Position numbers and translations under genes: made by a program | NCBI RefSeq assembly: GCF_003967175.1 | Contig: NZ_AP018553.1 | Coordinates: 248,001 to 312,000 of the forward strand | Direction of reading: 5' to 3' | Length of the DNA: 64,000 bases | From: Sulfodiicoccus acidiphilus | GTDB lineage: Archaea; Thermoproteota; Thermoprotei_A; Sulfolobales; Sulfolobaceae | Notes under the pieces: generated by a model | The model's database searches: none | What the model saw: only the letters and a program-made list of their open reading frames with translations | What the model was told of the DNA's origin: nothing | Shown: piece by piece, positions 38,378-46,122 of the stretch | Layout of the letters: the number at the start of each line of letters is the position of its first letter | Numbering within the stretch: position 1 is the first letter of the stretch

Positions 38378-39409
38378 TTAGTTTCCTTTTCTAAACTTGG
38401 GATAAACCCCAGACTCCATGAATACTCTCTCAATTTTCGCCACGATCCCTTTTTCCATATACGATAACGTGTCTGAGTCCACCAAAGCTGTAGAGATGGC
38501 TATGAGTTCACCTTTGTTAGTGATAATCGCAACCCTTTCCCCTTCTAAGAACTTTTGATAGGCCAGCACTCCGGGTGCCATGAGTGGAGCACCGTGAGTC
38601 AGGGAGTCTACTGCACCGTTAGAGGCGATTATTTTCGGCATTCCACAGGTTCCGAACTCAGTTGGCGTAAGCATCCTTTTCAGCTCGTCTTCTCTCTCGC
38701 ACCTTCTCCAAAGGAAAATCGCCTCTGATAGTTGATGTAAAGTCACAGCATGTTTCTCATGGAATATACCGGATCTAGTCCTTCGTAGCTCTCTCATGTG
38801 AGCACCCACCCCCAATACGAGTCCCATATCGTGGCAAAGTTTCCTCATATACGTCCCAGCATCTGACGAAACTCTCATTAACACTAAACGATCTTTCGCA
38901 TCCAATAGTTCTATTTCCCTCACTTCCCTCACTCTAAGCCGTCTCTTCACAGAGGATCTAACGGGAGGCCTCTGATAGACCCTACCTCTAAACTCCTCTA
39001 AAACTTCTAATAACCTCTTTCTTTCTACCTGTCCGTGAAGCTGCATCAGGCAAATGTATTCCTTATCGTTGTTAGTCAAGAACACGTTAAGTTTAGTGGC
39101 GTTCTCTAGACTGATTGGGAGTACGCCGGACACTTTGGGATATCCCCGCCCTCAGGAGGGCTCTAGGGTTCCTCCATGCCCAGCCTTCTTCACTCCCAGT
39201 AACACTTTTATCCAATGCGCAACTTCGTGGCTCGTCGGCCCAGGCGGTTTATCTATGATCAAGATGGAGTTCTTTAGGGCCTCGCTAAGGGACCTCTCTT
39301 CCGGCCTTTTCCCGTAACTAGGTAACTCCTCCTCCTCCCTAGTCACTATCCAAGGGCTCCTGTTCCCACAAAAATCATCTATTTCCCTTATGAAGGGGCG
39401 AATCTCCAA
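38378..39409 (-). CDS. cbf5: tRNA/rRNA pseudouridine synthase Cbf5 (TruB family), intron-containing
   Basis: Two frames in the same phase are separated by one in-frame TGA. Exon 1 (from TTG at 39409) includes LIIDKPPGPTSHEVAHW and GVKKAGHGGTLEP. Exon 2 continues KVSGVLPISLENATKLN and ends with the PUA domain. The catalytic aspartate position of the GTLD motif is Glu in this exon, GTLEP, which is unusual since TruB enzymes need Asp there. The stop lies in an insertion of 18 or 21 bases at exactly the position where crenarchaeal cbf5 genes carry an mRNA intron. Spliced length is about 336 residues. Cbf5 is the catalytic subunit of H/ACA RNPs. It follows rpl14e. Confidence 0.92.
39137..39160 (-). 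other. Putative archaeal mRNA intron in cbf5
   Basis: Between the codons for TLEP and KVSG an in-frame insertion carries the TGA at 39152-39154. Ends are ambiguous because CCC occurs at both edges. Removing 21 bases gives TLEPKVSG, the family sequence. Removing 18 bases (39141-39158) would give one extra proline and fits a 4-bp inner helix TCCT/GGGA with CCC and TAT bulges. Splicing would use the tRNA endonuclease and RtcB. Confidence 0.75.
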
Positions 39410-42770: not shown

Positions 42771-43858
42771 TCATGAGCTGCGCTGGAAATGCTGACCTTC
42801 GATTATGGTGTAAAGGACCTTTCCTCCTCTTTTCACGATAGCCATATACTTATCCAATGACCTGTTTATCCCACTCACCTCTCCATCTATGATGACGAAA
42901 TTACCGCGGGCTCCCTCCTCTATAGGCTGCATTCCTAAAAACTCGTAAGCGTTGAGGGTTGCGGCTCCAATTATTTCCTTCGCATCGCTGAAAGAAGGAT
43001 CTTCGGCCCTCGCTATTAACGTCGCGGTCTCAAGTTCTCTCCACATGTCCGGTGATACAAGCCCACCGTTGTCAGTCCCTAAAAGCAATCTCACTCCCTT
43101 CTTCAGGGCAGTCGCTACTCGTGGTATTCCCACGGAGAACCATAGGTTGCTCCTGGGGCACATTACTAGAGGTATTTTCAATCTTCCTATCTCCTCTAGC
43201 TCCTTCATAGATAGGCGAGTTCCGTGAACCAGGAGAGTTGGGGATAGCCTTAGGAGCCTTTCTAGGTCCCCTTCCAGTCCTTGCTTCAGGGTCTCGGAGA
43301 CGTGTGCTGCCCTCATTTTCCCCTGGAAGATTTTCTTAACCAACTCTAGCGTCTCATCGTCGTAATACGACGCACTGGGAACCCCTATCCCGTCTGCCAC
43401 CTCCCTCAACTTCCTCAACTTGTCCTCTGTAGGCTTTTTCTCGTCAGTCCTACCTAGAATCACGTATCTGCCTGGATACTCTCTTCTAGCCTTCGAGGCC
43501 CTCTCCACCCCGTAAATGTCCTCCTCTCTGAAATCGATCACACCTGCTATTCCGAGTTCCGCCGAAGTCCTCAAGAAGTCCCTAATACCGTCGGTTGAGT
43601 CAACTTCCCTGAATAATCTGTACTTTAAGCTGTCTGGATCTCCAACAACCTCCTTTATGGGTTTGTCTCCTCCGTACTCAGGCCTAACGTAGTCGGCGGT
43701 ATGGGCGTGTGAGTTGATTAAAGCAGGAACAGCCACTCCCCCTCTGAACTCCTCCCCTCCACTCACGAAACCAGGCCCAATGTGAGAGAGCTCTCCACTT
43801 TCAGAGACCTCTATGTGAACTCCTTGAACGAAGGTTAGCTCACGACCTAGGAGCGCAC
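42771..43858 (-). CDS. Amidohydrolase-superfamily deaminase in the riboflavin operon
   Basis: A metal-dependent hydrolase of about 360 residues in the cytosine/guanine deaminase group (ATZ/TRZ type). Metal ligands are visible: PALINSHAHTADY (HxH), MRAAHVSE, LLVHGTRLS and LLLGTDNGG (Asp). The C-terminal beta segment GARGNFVIIDGEVSGI completes the fold. The first normal start (GTG 43766) would lose the N-terminal beta-sandwich, which is clearly encoded upstream as GRELTFVQGVHIEVSESGEL, but no ATG, GTG or TTG exists in frame. The coordinate 43858 is a placeholder. It directly follows arfA, so it may serve as the missing pyrimidine deaminase of archaeal riboflavin synthesis. Confidence 0.72.
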
Positions 43859-43861
43859 TTC

Positions 43862-44566
43862 CTAAGTTGATGAGCCTACTACCACCCAGTTGTCCTCACG
43901 CTTCTTCCTTATTCTGTTCAGGGCTTCTGTGGCCCTAGCGGCTGCCTCCTTGGGGTTCTTTCCCTTTCCTACCCCCGCTTTTAGCTTATCGCCGAAGCCG
44001 TTCAACACATCCTTAACCTCCTGCAGAGTCGATGGGTCGATTAGTGCCACCATGTTGTCTCCCCCCATATACTGCGCCACCGCCCCTAATTTCATCAGTT
44101 CCTTTGAGAGCTTTAAGAAGACCTCGTTTACCCACACGGCCCTCTCGTACAGCGATAACCTGTTCCTTGAAAATCCATTGACGTCGAAGTGTGCAATCCA
44201 CACCTCTCCCTCCTTAGAATCGACTTCATCGTCGAACTCACCTGGTTTCATGTTGTTGGCGCACTCTGAGGCTTGACGTTGGGCCTCTAAGGGAGTTCTG
44301 CCAGACCTCACGCAGCCCGACGGAAGGACAGGTGCCACCTTTATTGCTTCCTGAAATATCCTCCTAGCCCCTCCCGCTTTAATCCCAATAGTTGGGACCA
44401 AGAACGCATCGAATGTAGTCATAAAGGGTATTGTTCCCTGCCTATCTGCCTCCTTTGTTATGCCTAAGGCCAGTCTAAACTGTGCCTCCTGTATTCTCCA
44501 TTCTCTATCATCACCTAGGATCTCCGTCCACTCTCTGTACCCAGAAAGTCTCACCGCCATCATCAT
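43862..44566 (-). CDS. arfA: GTP cyclohydrolase III (FAPy-forming)
   Basis: Encodes 234 residues. This archaeal enzyme opens GTP to the formamidopyrimidine intermediate, the first step of riboflavin and F420 precursor synthesis. The duplicated palm-like fold is visible, with the metal-binding HFDVNGFS and the [12 protein letters not shown] motif (GGDN), and [12 protein letters not shown] between. Start ATG triplets overlap the ribH stop as ATGATGATG. Fourth gene of the rib operon. Confidence 0.93.
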
Positions 44567-45027
44567 TCCACTGTCACTGTCTCCCCTACTTCCTTCACTT
44601 CCTCCAAGCTCCTCAATCTCCTCACCATCTTTACCGCCGATTCCACGGCTCTCACCGCATACTCCTCTATTCTGTCCACCGCCTGTTCGTGGGAAGCACC
44701 AGGTCCTATTATCCCGACTGTCACAGGCTTGTTTGAGTCAAGTGATATATCCATTATCTTTCTAAAAACTTGAGAAGCCACCGATTCGTCGTGTTTGGTC
44801 TCACCCTTTATTACCGCACCTAAGGTCACCACAGCATCGACGTCGGGTCTCTCAGCTAACTTAGAGGCCGCGAGGGGAATTTCGAAGCTTCCAGGGACTT
44901 TCACCACAAGTGGCACATCAACGCCGAGGAACTTAGCGTGGGATAGGGCCCTCTGCAGCATCAGGTAGGTGACGTCGTAGTTGAACTCCGCCACAACTAT
45001 GGCGAGCCTAATCGAGCGATCCTGCAT
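44563..45027 (-). CDS. ribH: 6,7-dimethyl-8-ribityllumazine synthase
   Basis: Encodes 154 residues. RibH condenses the ribityl-diaminopyrimidine with dihydroxybutanone phosphate. Motifs: VAEFNYDVT at the N-terminus, [28 protein letters not shown] with the catalytic His, and the phosphate-binding [12 protein letters not shown]. Overlaps ribC by 20 bases. Confidence 0.97.
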
Positions 45028-45469
45028 CCTCGTACCCCTGCCTCAGTCCCTTTCCAGCGAGAGGTGTAAGAGAGTTGGGACCATCCCTTACTAGTCTAAC
45101 CAAGTTTAAGGCATGTTTCCTCGCCCTATCTATGGCCACCTGGGCCAGCCTTTCCTCGTTTGTCTCGTCCTCGTGAACAGTCACATCCATCACGTGTTTT
45201 GAGGTCATGATCTGTACAAATATTAAGCCTACGCTCGCCGCGATGTAGCTGTACTTGTCCAGTTGAGTCCTCCCTACCCAGCCTAGGGTTATCACCCCAT
45301 CGCATCCAGCGTCCAATAGCCTCTTAGCGGCTGCCGGAAGGTCTTTGATCCCGGGAACGGTATATCTGACGATTTGTGCTTCAGGGTCCTCCTTGGATAT
45401 TACTCTTATCGCCTCCTTTCCCATGTCAACTCTGGAGAACGTGGTGTCGGCCACACCGTACTTCCTCAT
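45008..45469 (-). CDS. ribC: Riboflavin synthase, archaeal type
   Basis: Encodes 153 residues. The archaeal riboflavin synthase is a relative of lumazine synthase, not of the bacterial trimeric enzyme. Marks: [49 protein letters not shown] and [15 protein letters not shown]. Overlaps ribB by four bases. Confidence 0.95.
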
Positions 45470-46122
45470 GCCAGCTCACCTAATATTTCTGTTCCCTCTA
45501 GGAAAGAGACTCCCCAGTTCTTCGCCAATTTCTTGGCCTTCTCCTTACTCAAGCTGGCCCCCTCATCGAGCATCTCTGCTATCACCATACTCCTTTCCAG
45601 CCCCAGGGCCTCAGCAAGAACCATCACCAGTTCCGTGTGCCCTCTCCTTCTGTCTACACCTCTTGAAATCAGGACTGGAACGTGGCCTGGAGCCATGAAG
45701 CTTTCCCTAAATTTCCTCCTCGCTTCTCCGTCGTCCGTGGATAGGAGCTTAACTACTTCGTGAAGGCCCCTTATTGTCTTGGCCCTATCGTTGTCACTTA
45801 TCCCCGTTTTCGTCTCAATGTGGTTGACCCATAGCGAGAACGCAGGCTCGTCACCATAAGAAGGCCTCTTAACGAGATCTCCCATTCCTACTTCTCTCAA
45901 AATTTCGGTGAAGAAAGGCAATCCGAGGAGTTTTCCTTCTCTCTCCCCTGTGACGAAGCAGATGAGTCCCCCCGCCTCCTTCCTAAGTGTGGTTATACTC
46001 TTTGGGGTCACTGCCCCCCCGTAGAAAACCATATCGACCTCCTCCTCCCTTCCCTCGAAATCGTATACAAGCACGGGTAGTCCACGCTCTAGCTCTTGTT
46101 TAAGCCTCGCCTTATCGTTCAC
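45466..46122 (-). CDS. ribB: 3,4-dihydroxy-2-butanone 4-phosphate synthase
   Basis: Encodes 218 residues from GTG 46122. RibB makes the four-carbon unit from ribulose 5-phosphate. Active-site parts: FEGREEEVDMVFYG with the acidic metal-binding cluster, KEAGGLICF, NHIETKTGISDNDRAKTI and APGHVPVLISRGVDRRRGHTE. First gene of the rib operon. Confidence 0.95.
   Translation of the reverse strand: MNDKARLKQELERGLPVLVYDFEGREEEVDMVFYGGAVTPKSITTLRKEAGGLICFVTGEREGKLLGLPFFTEILREVGMGDLVKRPSYGDEPAFSLWVNHIETKTGISDNDRAKTIRGLHEVVKLLSTDDGEARRKFRESFMAPGHVPVLISRGVDRRRGHTELVMVLAEALGLERSMVIAEMLDEGASLSKEKAKKLAKNWGVSFLEGTEILGELA

Follow-up and report, generated by a model that had tools for sequence, protein, structure and literature searches.

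The window, a stretch of 64,000 nt from the genome of Sulfodiicoccus acidiphilus, carries on its minus strand the rib operon of this archaeon in the order ribB-ribC-ribH-arfA, followed by an amidohydrolase frame that ends at position 42771. Family scans against Pfam and NCBIfam confirmed the gene names: ribB encodes DHBP synthase (45466..46122; NF004437, 321.6 bits at a cut-off of 262), ribC the archaeal riboflavin synthase (45008..45469; TIGR01506, 206.1 bits at a cut-off of 100.55), ribH lumazine synthase (44563..45027; TIGR00114, 140.3 bits at a cut-off of 84.6) and arfA GTP cyclohydrolase III (GCH_III; 43862..44566; PF05165, 129.7 bits). Successive genes overlap, ribB and ribC by 4 nt, ribC and ribH by 20 nt, and ribH and arfA by 4 nt, and the amidohydrolase frame in turn overlaps the 3′ end of arfA. 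The family names and the successive overlaps thus bear out the original prediction that this operon runs directly into the amidohydrolase.

The 5′ end of the amidohydrolase had been placed at 43858, which we rejected because it is out of frame: the GTG at this position lies in another frame (GTG CGC TCC TAG) and meets a stop after three codons, and the span 42771-43858 is not divisible by three. The amidohydrolase frame stays open into arfA, and no in-frame ATG, GTG or TTG was found in it upstream of 43766. The GTG at 43766 itself is unlikely to be the start because about 41 residues, including a conserved N-terminal stretch, would be removed. As the simplest reading of the sequence, translation probably starts at a CTG within the 3′ end of arfA (43887..43889, minus strand), 4 nt downstream of a TGAGG motif (43894..43898, minus strand) that may serve as a Shine-Dalgarno-like element. 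From this putative start the gene covers 42771..43889 on the minus strand, stop included, and would encode a protein of 372 aa.

A CTG stands at the corresponding position at the end of arfA in the sole congener examined (L010), and in the two species it is preceded by GTGATGG or GTGAGG. In the remaining 28 loci from Sulfolobaceae, an ATG, GTG or TTG occurs nearby, and in 27 of them it lies within the overlap with arfA; in the exception, L026, the start codon of the amidohydrolase lies 3 nt past the arfA stop. The conserved CTG seems to be the start in this genus, and other Sulfolobaceae have one of the usual start codons at about this position. Elsewhere in the window, on the minus strand at 38378-39409, the reading frame of a truB/cbf5-like gene is broken in two around 39133-39160. 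The split coincides with the site of known crenarchaeal cbf5 introns, and we presume that it is probably such an intron.

Active-site residues and predicted fold

The amidohydrolase matched the Pfam family Amidohydro_1 with 87 bits (curated cut-off 25). Its best NCBIfam match was PRK07213 chlorohydrolase (NF005552), with 178.3 bits across 346 residues; this is below the curated cut-off of 294 bits for that equivalog, i.e., the protein is related to this family and not filed as a member of it. All ten order-level members tested scored between 121 and 220 bits against PRK07213, and both M. jannaschii and H. volcanii match the model. Scores against the models for SAH/MTA-type deaminases (NF012037, 18.1 vs 779; NF005557, 5′-deoxyadenosine deaminase, 46.2 vs 522) and for guanine deaminase (TIGR02967, 42.3 vs 375.4) were far below their cut-offs. 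No N-terminal (deaminase) domain of RibD was found in the protein, whose matches in Pfam and NCBIfam were to amidohydrolase families only.

Residue conservation was read from a profile alignment of 113 family rows including duplicates (about 91 after collapse of near-duplicates). The mononuclear metal-site pattern HxH, H, H, D is complete, with ligand roles assigned by analogy, and all of its residues are invariant (113/113 rows): H61 and H63 of the HxH motif (43701..43709), H196 of the HxxE motif (43293..43304), H222 (43224..43226) and D273 (43068..43073, a span that includes N274). Equally invariant is E199 of HxxE, the proposed proton-shuttle glutamate. The original prediction of a complete set of metal ligands was therefore correct. 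Beyond these six residues, D66 (43692-43694), K89 (43623..43625), E122 (43524..43526; after barrel strand 2 in the model) and N274 are invariant in 113/113 rows, and R246, within an RSN motif (43146..43154), is conserved in 112/113; all of these positions are on the minus strand.

The comparison with paralogues from the same genome covers two of them, L002 and L004 (handle L061 denotes the L004 position again); for two others, the part that could be aligned was too small for a comparison. The six metal and HxxE residues are common to both, and D66, K89, E122, R246 and N274 are absent from both: V or W is found in place of K89, T or A in place of R246, and G or C in place of N274. At the level of sequence, the family is thus distinguished from the two same-genome paralogues by these five positions.

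The AlphaFold model of the amidohydrolase has a mean pLDDT of 94.6 and the TIM-barrel fold of this branch, aligning to solved members with Z ~42 over nearly the whole chain. The nearest structures found with Foldseek and VIA-align were SAH/MTA deaminases (Z ~42), the isocytosine deaminase Vcz (Z 40) and guanine deaminases (Z ~38). Isocytosine and guanine share the 2-amino-4-oxo-pyrimidine unit with the substrate proposed below. In the TIM-barrel amidohydrolase fold, the active site is formed at the C-terminal ends of the barrel strands. According to the secondary structure of the model, the invariant residues lie at or just past these ends, with K89 in a nearby helix. Family scan, metal site, HxxE motif and predicted fold all agree with the earlier assignment of the gene to the deaminases of the cytosine/guanine group.

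Linkage and co-occurrence with the riboflavin pathway

In bacteria, the deamination step of riboflavin synthesis is carried out by the deaminase domain of RibD, which has the CDA fold. For archaeal riboflavin and F420 synthesis, to our knowledge, two steps are without a proven enzyme, the deamination and the phosphatase step. In the genome studied here, ArfA, RibB, RibH and RibC are all encoded in the operon, the ArfC gene lies at G000:C1:20354-20872 and a gene of the ArfB family at 1408373-1409056; this leaves the deaminase and the phosphatase to be accounted for, and the former is a role that suits an aminohydrolase. A full RibD (TIGR00326 cut-off) was found in 0 of 200 Thermoproteota genomes, and no RibD deaminase domain was found in this genome, where the TIGR00326 match is limited to the C-terminal reductase half.

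Conservation of the gene pair, proposed earlier as a check, was evident at several levels. The order ribC-ribH-arfA directly upstream of the amidohydrolase is kept in 30 of 30 Sulfolobaceae loci, and the operon linkage is therefore not due to chance. Among the 82 gene-bearing Thermoproteota genomes, 59, from 12 of 14 families, have the gene linked to ribH (at most 10 kb away), to arfC (at most 2 kb away) or, in a single genome, to an adjacent arfA; 41 of the 82 have arfC at this short distance. In the genomes inspected from families f13, f41 and f45, the gene is placed between arfA and arfC, as in the f13 locus L168 (the family resembles ammonia oxidisers in size and gene content), with the order ribB-ribH-arfA-gene-arfC and overlapping genes. 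The linkage is lost in 23 of the 82 genomes, mostly of families f18, f26 and f6, and there the gene still tracks the pathway. At order level, rib homologues stand beside the gene in 4 of 20 loci, and none was found within the stretch examined in 16 of 20. Among 47 named loci from the genome scan, a ribC/ribH cluster lies beside the gene in a Bathyarchaeota locus (L065), a Baldrarchaeota locus (L084), a euryarchaeal MAG (L083), Desulfurococcales MAGs and Sulfolobales, and arfA adjoins it in Thaumarchaeota-type MAGs (L069, L070, L073, L074); in many others of the 47, no rib neighbour was found within the stretch examined.

All co-occurrence searches used the same 200 Thermoproteota genomes, each at least 90% complete. 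Orthologues were called at a cut-off of at least 160 bits that was chosen after the scores were known; the lowest score above it was 163.2 and the next were 122.7 (G224) and 117.6 (a paralogue), and the split matches in G224 and G169 were accepted as orthologues by judgement. ArfC-type matches were counted at a threshold of at least 66 bits. On this basis, 82 of the 200 genomes carry the gene, 82 carry PF00885 (ribH) and 79 carry both; ArfC-type matches occur in 88 genomes, and together with ribH in 78. Presence and absence of the gene followed the pathway, with the gene in 78/78 genomes that have ribH and ArfC vs 4/122 elsewhere. The corresponding Fisher test (p = 2.5e-51) overstates the case because the genomes are phylogenetically non-independent; it ignores kinship, and 32 of the 82 carriers come from one family. 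In the families that contain both kinds of genomes (f10, f26), the gene and ribH switch together. The same count for PF02633, the ArfB family, gave 77/78 pathway genomes vs 73/122 others, and for PF00383 deaminases 66/78 vs 55/122. Co-occurrence of this kind points to the pathway, not to a particular step. G003 is the sole pathway genome of the 78 without a PF02633 match; its deformylase step is thereby left partly uncovered, and a different deformylase may act in it.

Three of the four carriers outside the 78 pathway genomes have arfC within 2 kb of the gene, and G123 has ribH and the amidohydrolase with no ArfC match. Three genomes have ribH without the amidohydrolase (G032, G042, G091); they are also without an ArfC match and are therefore not exceptions with a complete pathway. 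Against the reading as pathway deaminase stand seven genomes with an ArfC-type match of at least 66 bits and no amidohydrolase (G119, G129, G147, G160, G176, G188, G225), none of which has ribH. Weaker matches to the ArfC region (45-63 bits), left out by the 66-bit cut-off, occur in G038, G048, G098, G128, G132 and G187, none with ribH or the amidohydrolase. The ribH-like gene of G032 (L174, 4425-8231) stands alone and is divergent from genes that, judged by eye, appear to encode an ECF-type vitamin transporter. Outside the Thermoproteota, 146 of 146 Halobacteriota genomes match the family profile at 1e-15, and 141 have a best E-value of at most 2.4e-47 (~160 bits), a border that is less clean here because weaker second matches reach ~156 bits.

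A candidate deaminase for archaeal riboflavin and F420 synthesis

Operon, linkage, co-occurrence, predicted fold and conserved site lend good computational support to the original prediction of a candidate riboflavin-pathway deaminase. Judging from these sequence-derived data, the amidohydrolase very likely performs the deamination in archaeal riboflavin synthesis and in the portion shared with F420 synthesis. It would be a mononuclear-metal TIM-barrel aminohydrolase from the cytosine/guanine-deaminase branch of the amidohydrolase superfamily, with the ArfC product 2,5-diamino-6-ribitylamino-4(3H)-pyrimidinone 5′-phosphate as its presumed substrate. Hydrolysis of the 2-amino group would yield 5-amino-6-ribitylamino-2,4-pyrimidinedione 5′-phosphate. 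By analogy with known members, a metal-bound water (H61/H63/H196/D273) would attack C2 with E199 as proton shuttle. K89 and R246 may contribute to binding of the phosphate, and D66, E122 and N274 to binding of the pyrimidine ring.

The nearest solved structures, being SAH/MTA, isocytosine and guanine deaminases, would also suit an enzyme that deaminates some other N-heterocycle in salvage (SAH/MTA, guanine, isocytosine or cytosine) and came to lie in the rib operon by chance. Such an enzyme, however, should not be confined to pathway genomes in the way observed (78/78 vs 4/122), and the genome encodes a separate SAH-deaminase-like paralogue without D66, K89, E122, R246 and N274. The model scores far below the cut-offs, together with these five family-specific residues, disfavour a plain SAH or guanine deaminase, the two rival activities named in the original prediction, and we regard a salvage role in general as highly improbable. 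Co-occurrence and linkage are predicted equally well if the protein acts at another step of the same pathway, be it the deformylation assigned to ArfB or a deamination of the ribosyl compound before the ArfC reduction, as in bacteria; the pathway genome lacking PF02633 would fit the former. Yet the presence of the ArfB family in this genome and in 77 of the 78 pathway genomes disfavours a replacement of ArfB, reduction first is the archaeal order described in a 2026 review, and both the HxxE site and the closest structural matches belong mainly to aminohydrolases. Another step is accordingly improbable in our view.

A different protein might also perform the deamination and leave the amidohydrolase with an unrelated role. 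The one CDA-fold protein of this genome (PF00383; G000:C1:25883-26191) has the fold of the RibD deaminase domain and is encoded ~5 kb from arfC; PF00383 matches lie likewise ~3 kb from arfC in G010, G018 and G022. Its surroundings (L179, 11244-12261; G000:C1:25243-26260) comprise what we take, from their motifs, to be a upp-like phosphoribosyltransferase gene and a cytidine-deaminase-like gene; the protein abuts the former and reads as a cytidine deaminase. Of the 78 pathway genomes, 12 have no PF00383 match (5 of these are Sulfolobaceae); of the 122 others, 55 have one. On distribution and upp-like context we rejected this protein as the riboflavin deaminase, an assignment we consider extremely unlikely.

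A candidate for the deamination step is apparently already in print. PMC8305020 describes three gaps left in the riboflavin pathway of Haloferax volcanii, two of which have a predicted candidate, and its Table 6 gives MJ0699/HVO_2483 as predictions, citing Rodionova et al. 2017. Their rows stand between arfC and the phosphatase gap, apparently at the deaminase step, and both proteins may belong to the same family as the amidohydrolase. A printed prediction for the deamination step thus exists, and the idea is therefore not wholly new. The original view that the archaeal deaminase was not firmly identified held in so far as no experimental demonstration was recognised in the open-access journal literature searched; it has to be qualified by the predicted candidate already in print in PMC8305020. 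A 2022 paper and a 2026 review describe the later riboflavin steps as common with bacteria.

We suggest, with good though lesser confidence, a wider reading: an amidohydrolase-fold enzyme unrelated to RibD is likely the general riboflavin/F420 deaminase of much of Archaea, as an ancient non-homologous replacement. Its distribution would plausibly include Thermoproteota, among them Sulfolobales and families that resemble ammonia oxidisers, together with Halobacteriota, Altiarchaeales, Bathyarchaeota and one or more Baldrarchaeota MAGs. The family would be recognisable by the five-residue signature D66, K89, E122, R246 and N274 in proteins that currently carry the names chlorohydrolase, cytosine deaminase or amidohydrolase. 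If so, bacteria and archaea use unrelated folds for one chemical step, which was then solved twice. In place of a vague pathway gap there is now a protein, with specific residues, that can be tested directly, and the common annotations of this riboflavin-linked family as chlorohydrolase or cytosine deaminase are probably wrong. In a study of a sponge symbiont (PMC7848895), a COG0402 "cytosine deaminase" present in nearly all Thaumarchaeota was counted under creatinine degradation; by inference, this may instead be the riboflavin gene proposed here.

Relation to known deaminases

The SAH/MTA deaminases (TM0936, 1p1m/1j6p/2plm; 4f0r/4f0s; 4gbd) resemble the amidohydrolase most closely in fold (357-364 residues superimposed at 2.3-2.7 A, Z ~42) and have the metal ligands and HxxE in common with it, at ~19-22% identity. 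They differ from it in that the amidohydrolase gene is located in a riboflavin operon, and the genome's own SAH-deaminase-like paralogue has other residues at the positions of D66, K89, E122, R246 and N274. The isocytosine deaminase Vcz (7ww2, 8is4) has a like fold (Z 40) at 16% identity and belongs to a different family. Its substrate is a free base with a 2-amino-4-oxo-pyrimidine ring, in which a phosphate is not expected. PRK07213 "chlorohydrolase" (NF005552), although the best NCBIfam match, stays below its cut-off and bears a name without riboflavin function. The bacterial RibD deaminase domain, with its CDA fold, serves the same proposed pathway step and has no sequence or fold relation to the amidohydrolase, which, in contrast to it, would act on the reduced substrate.
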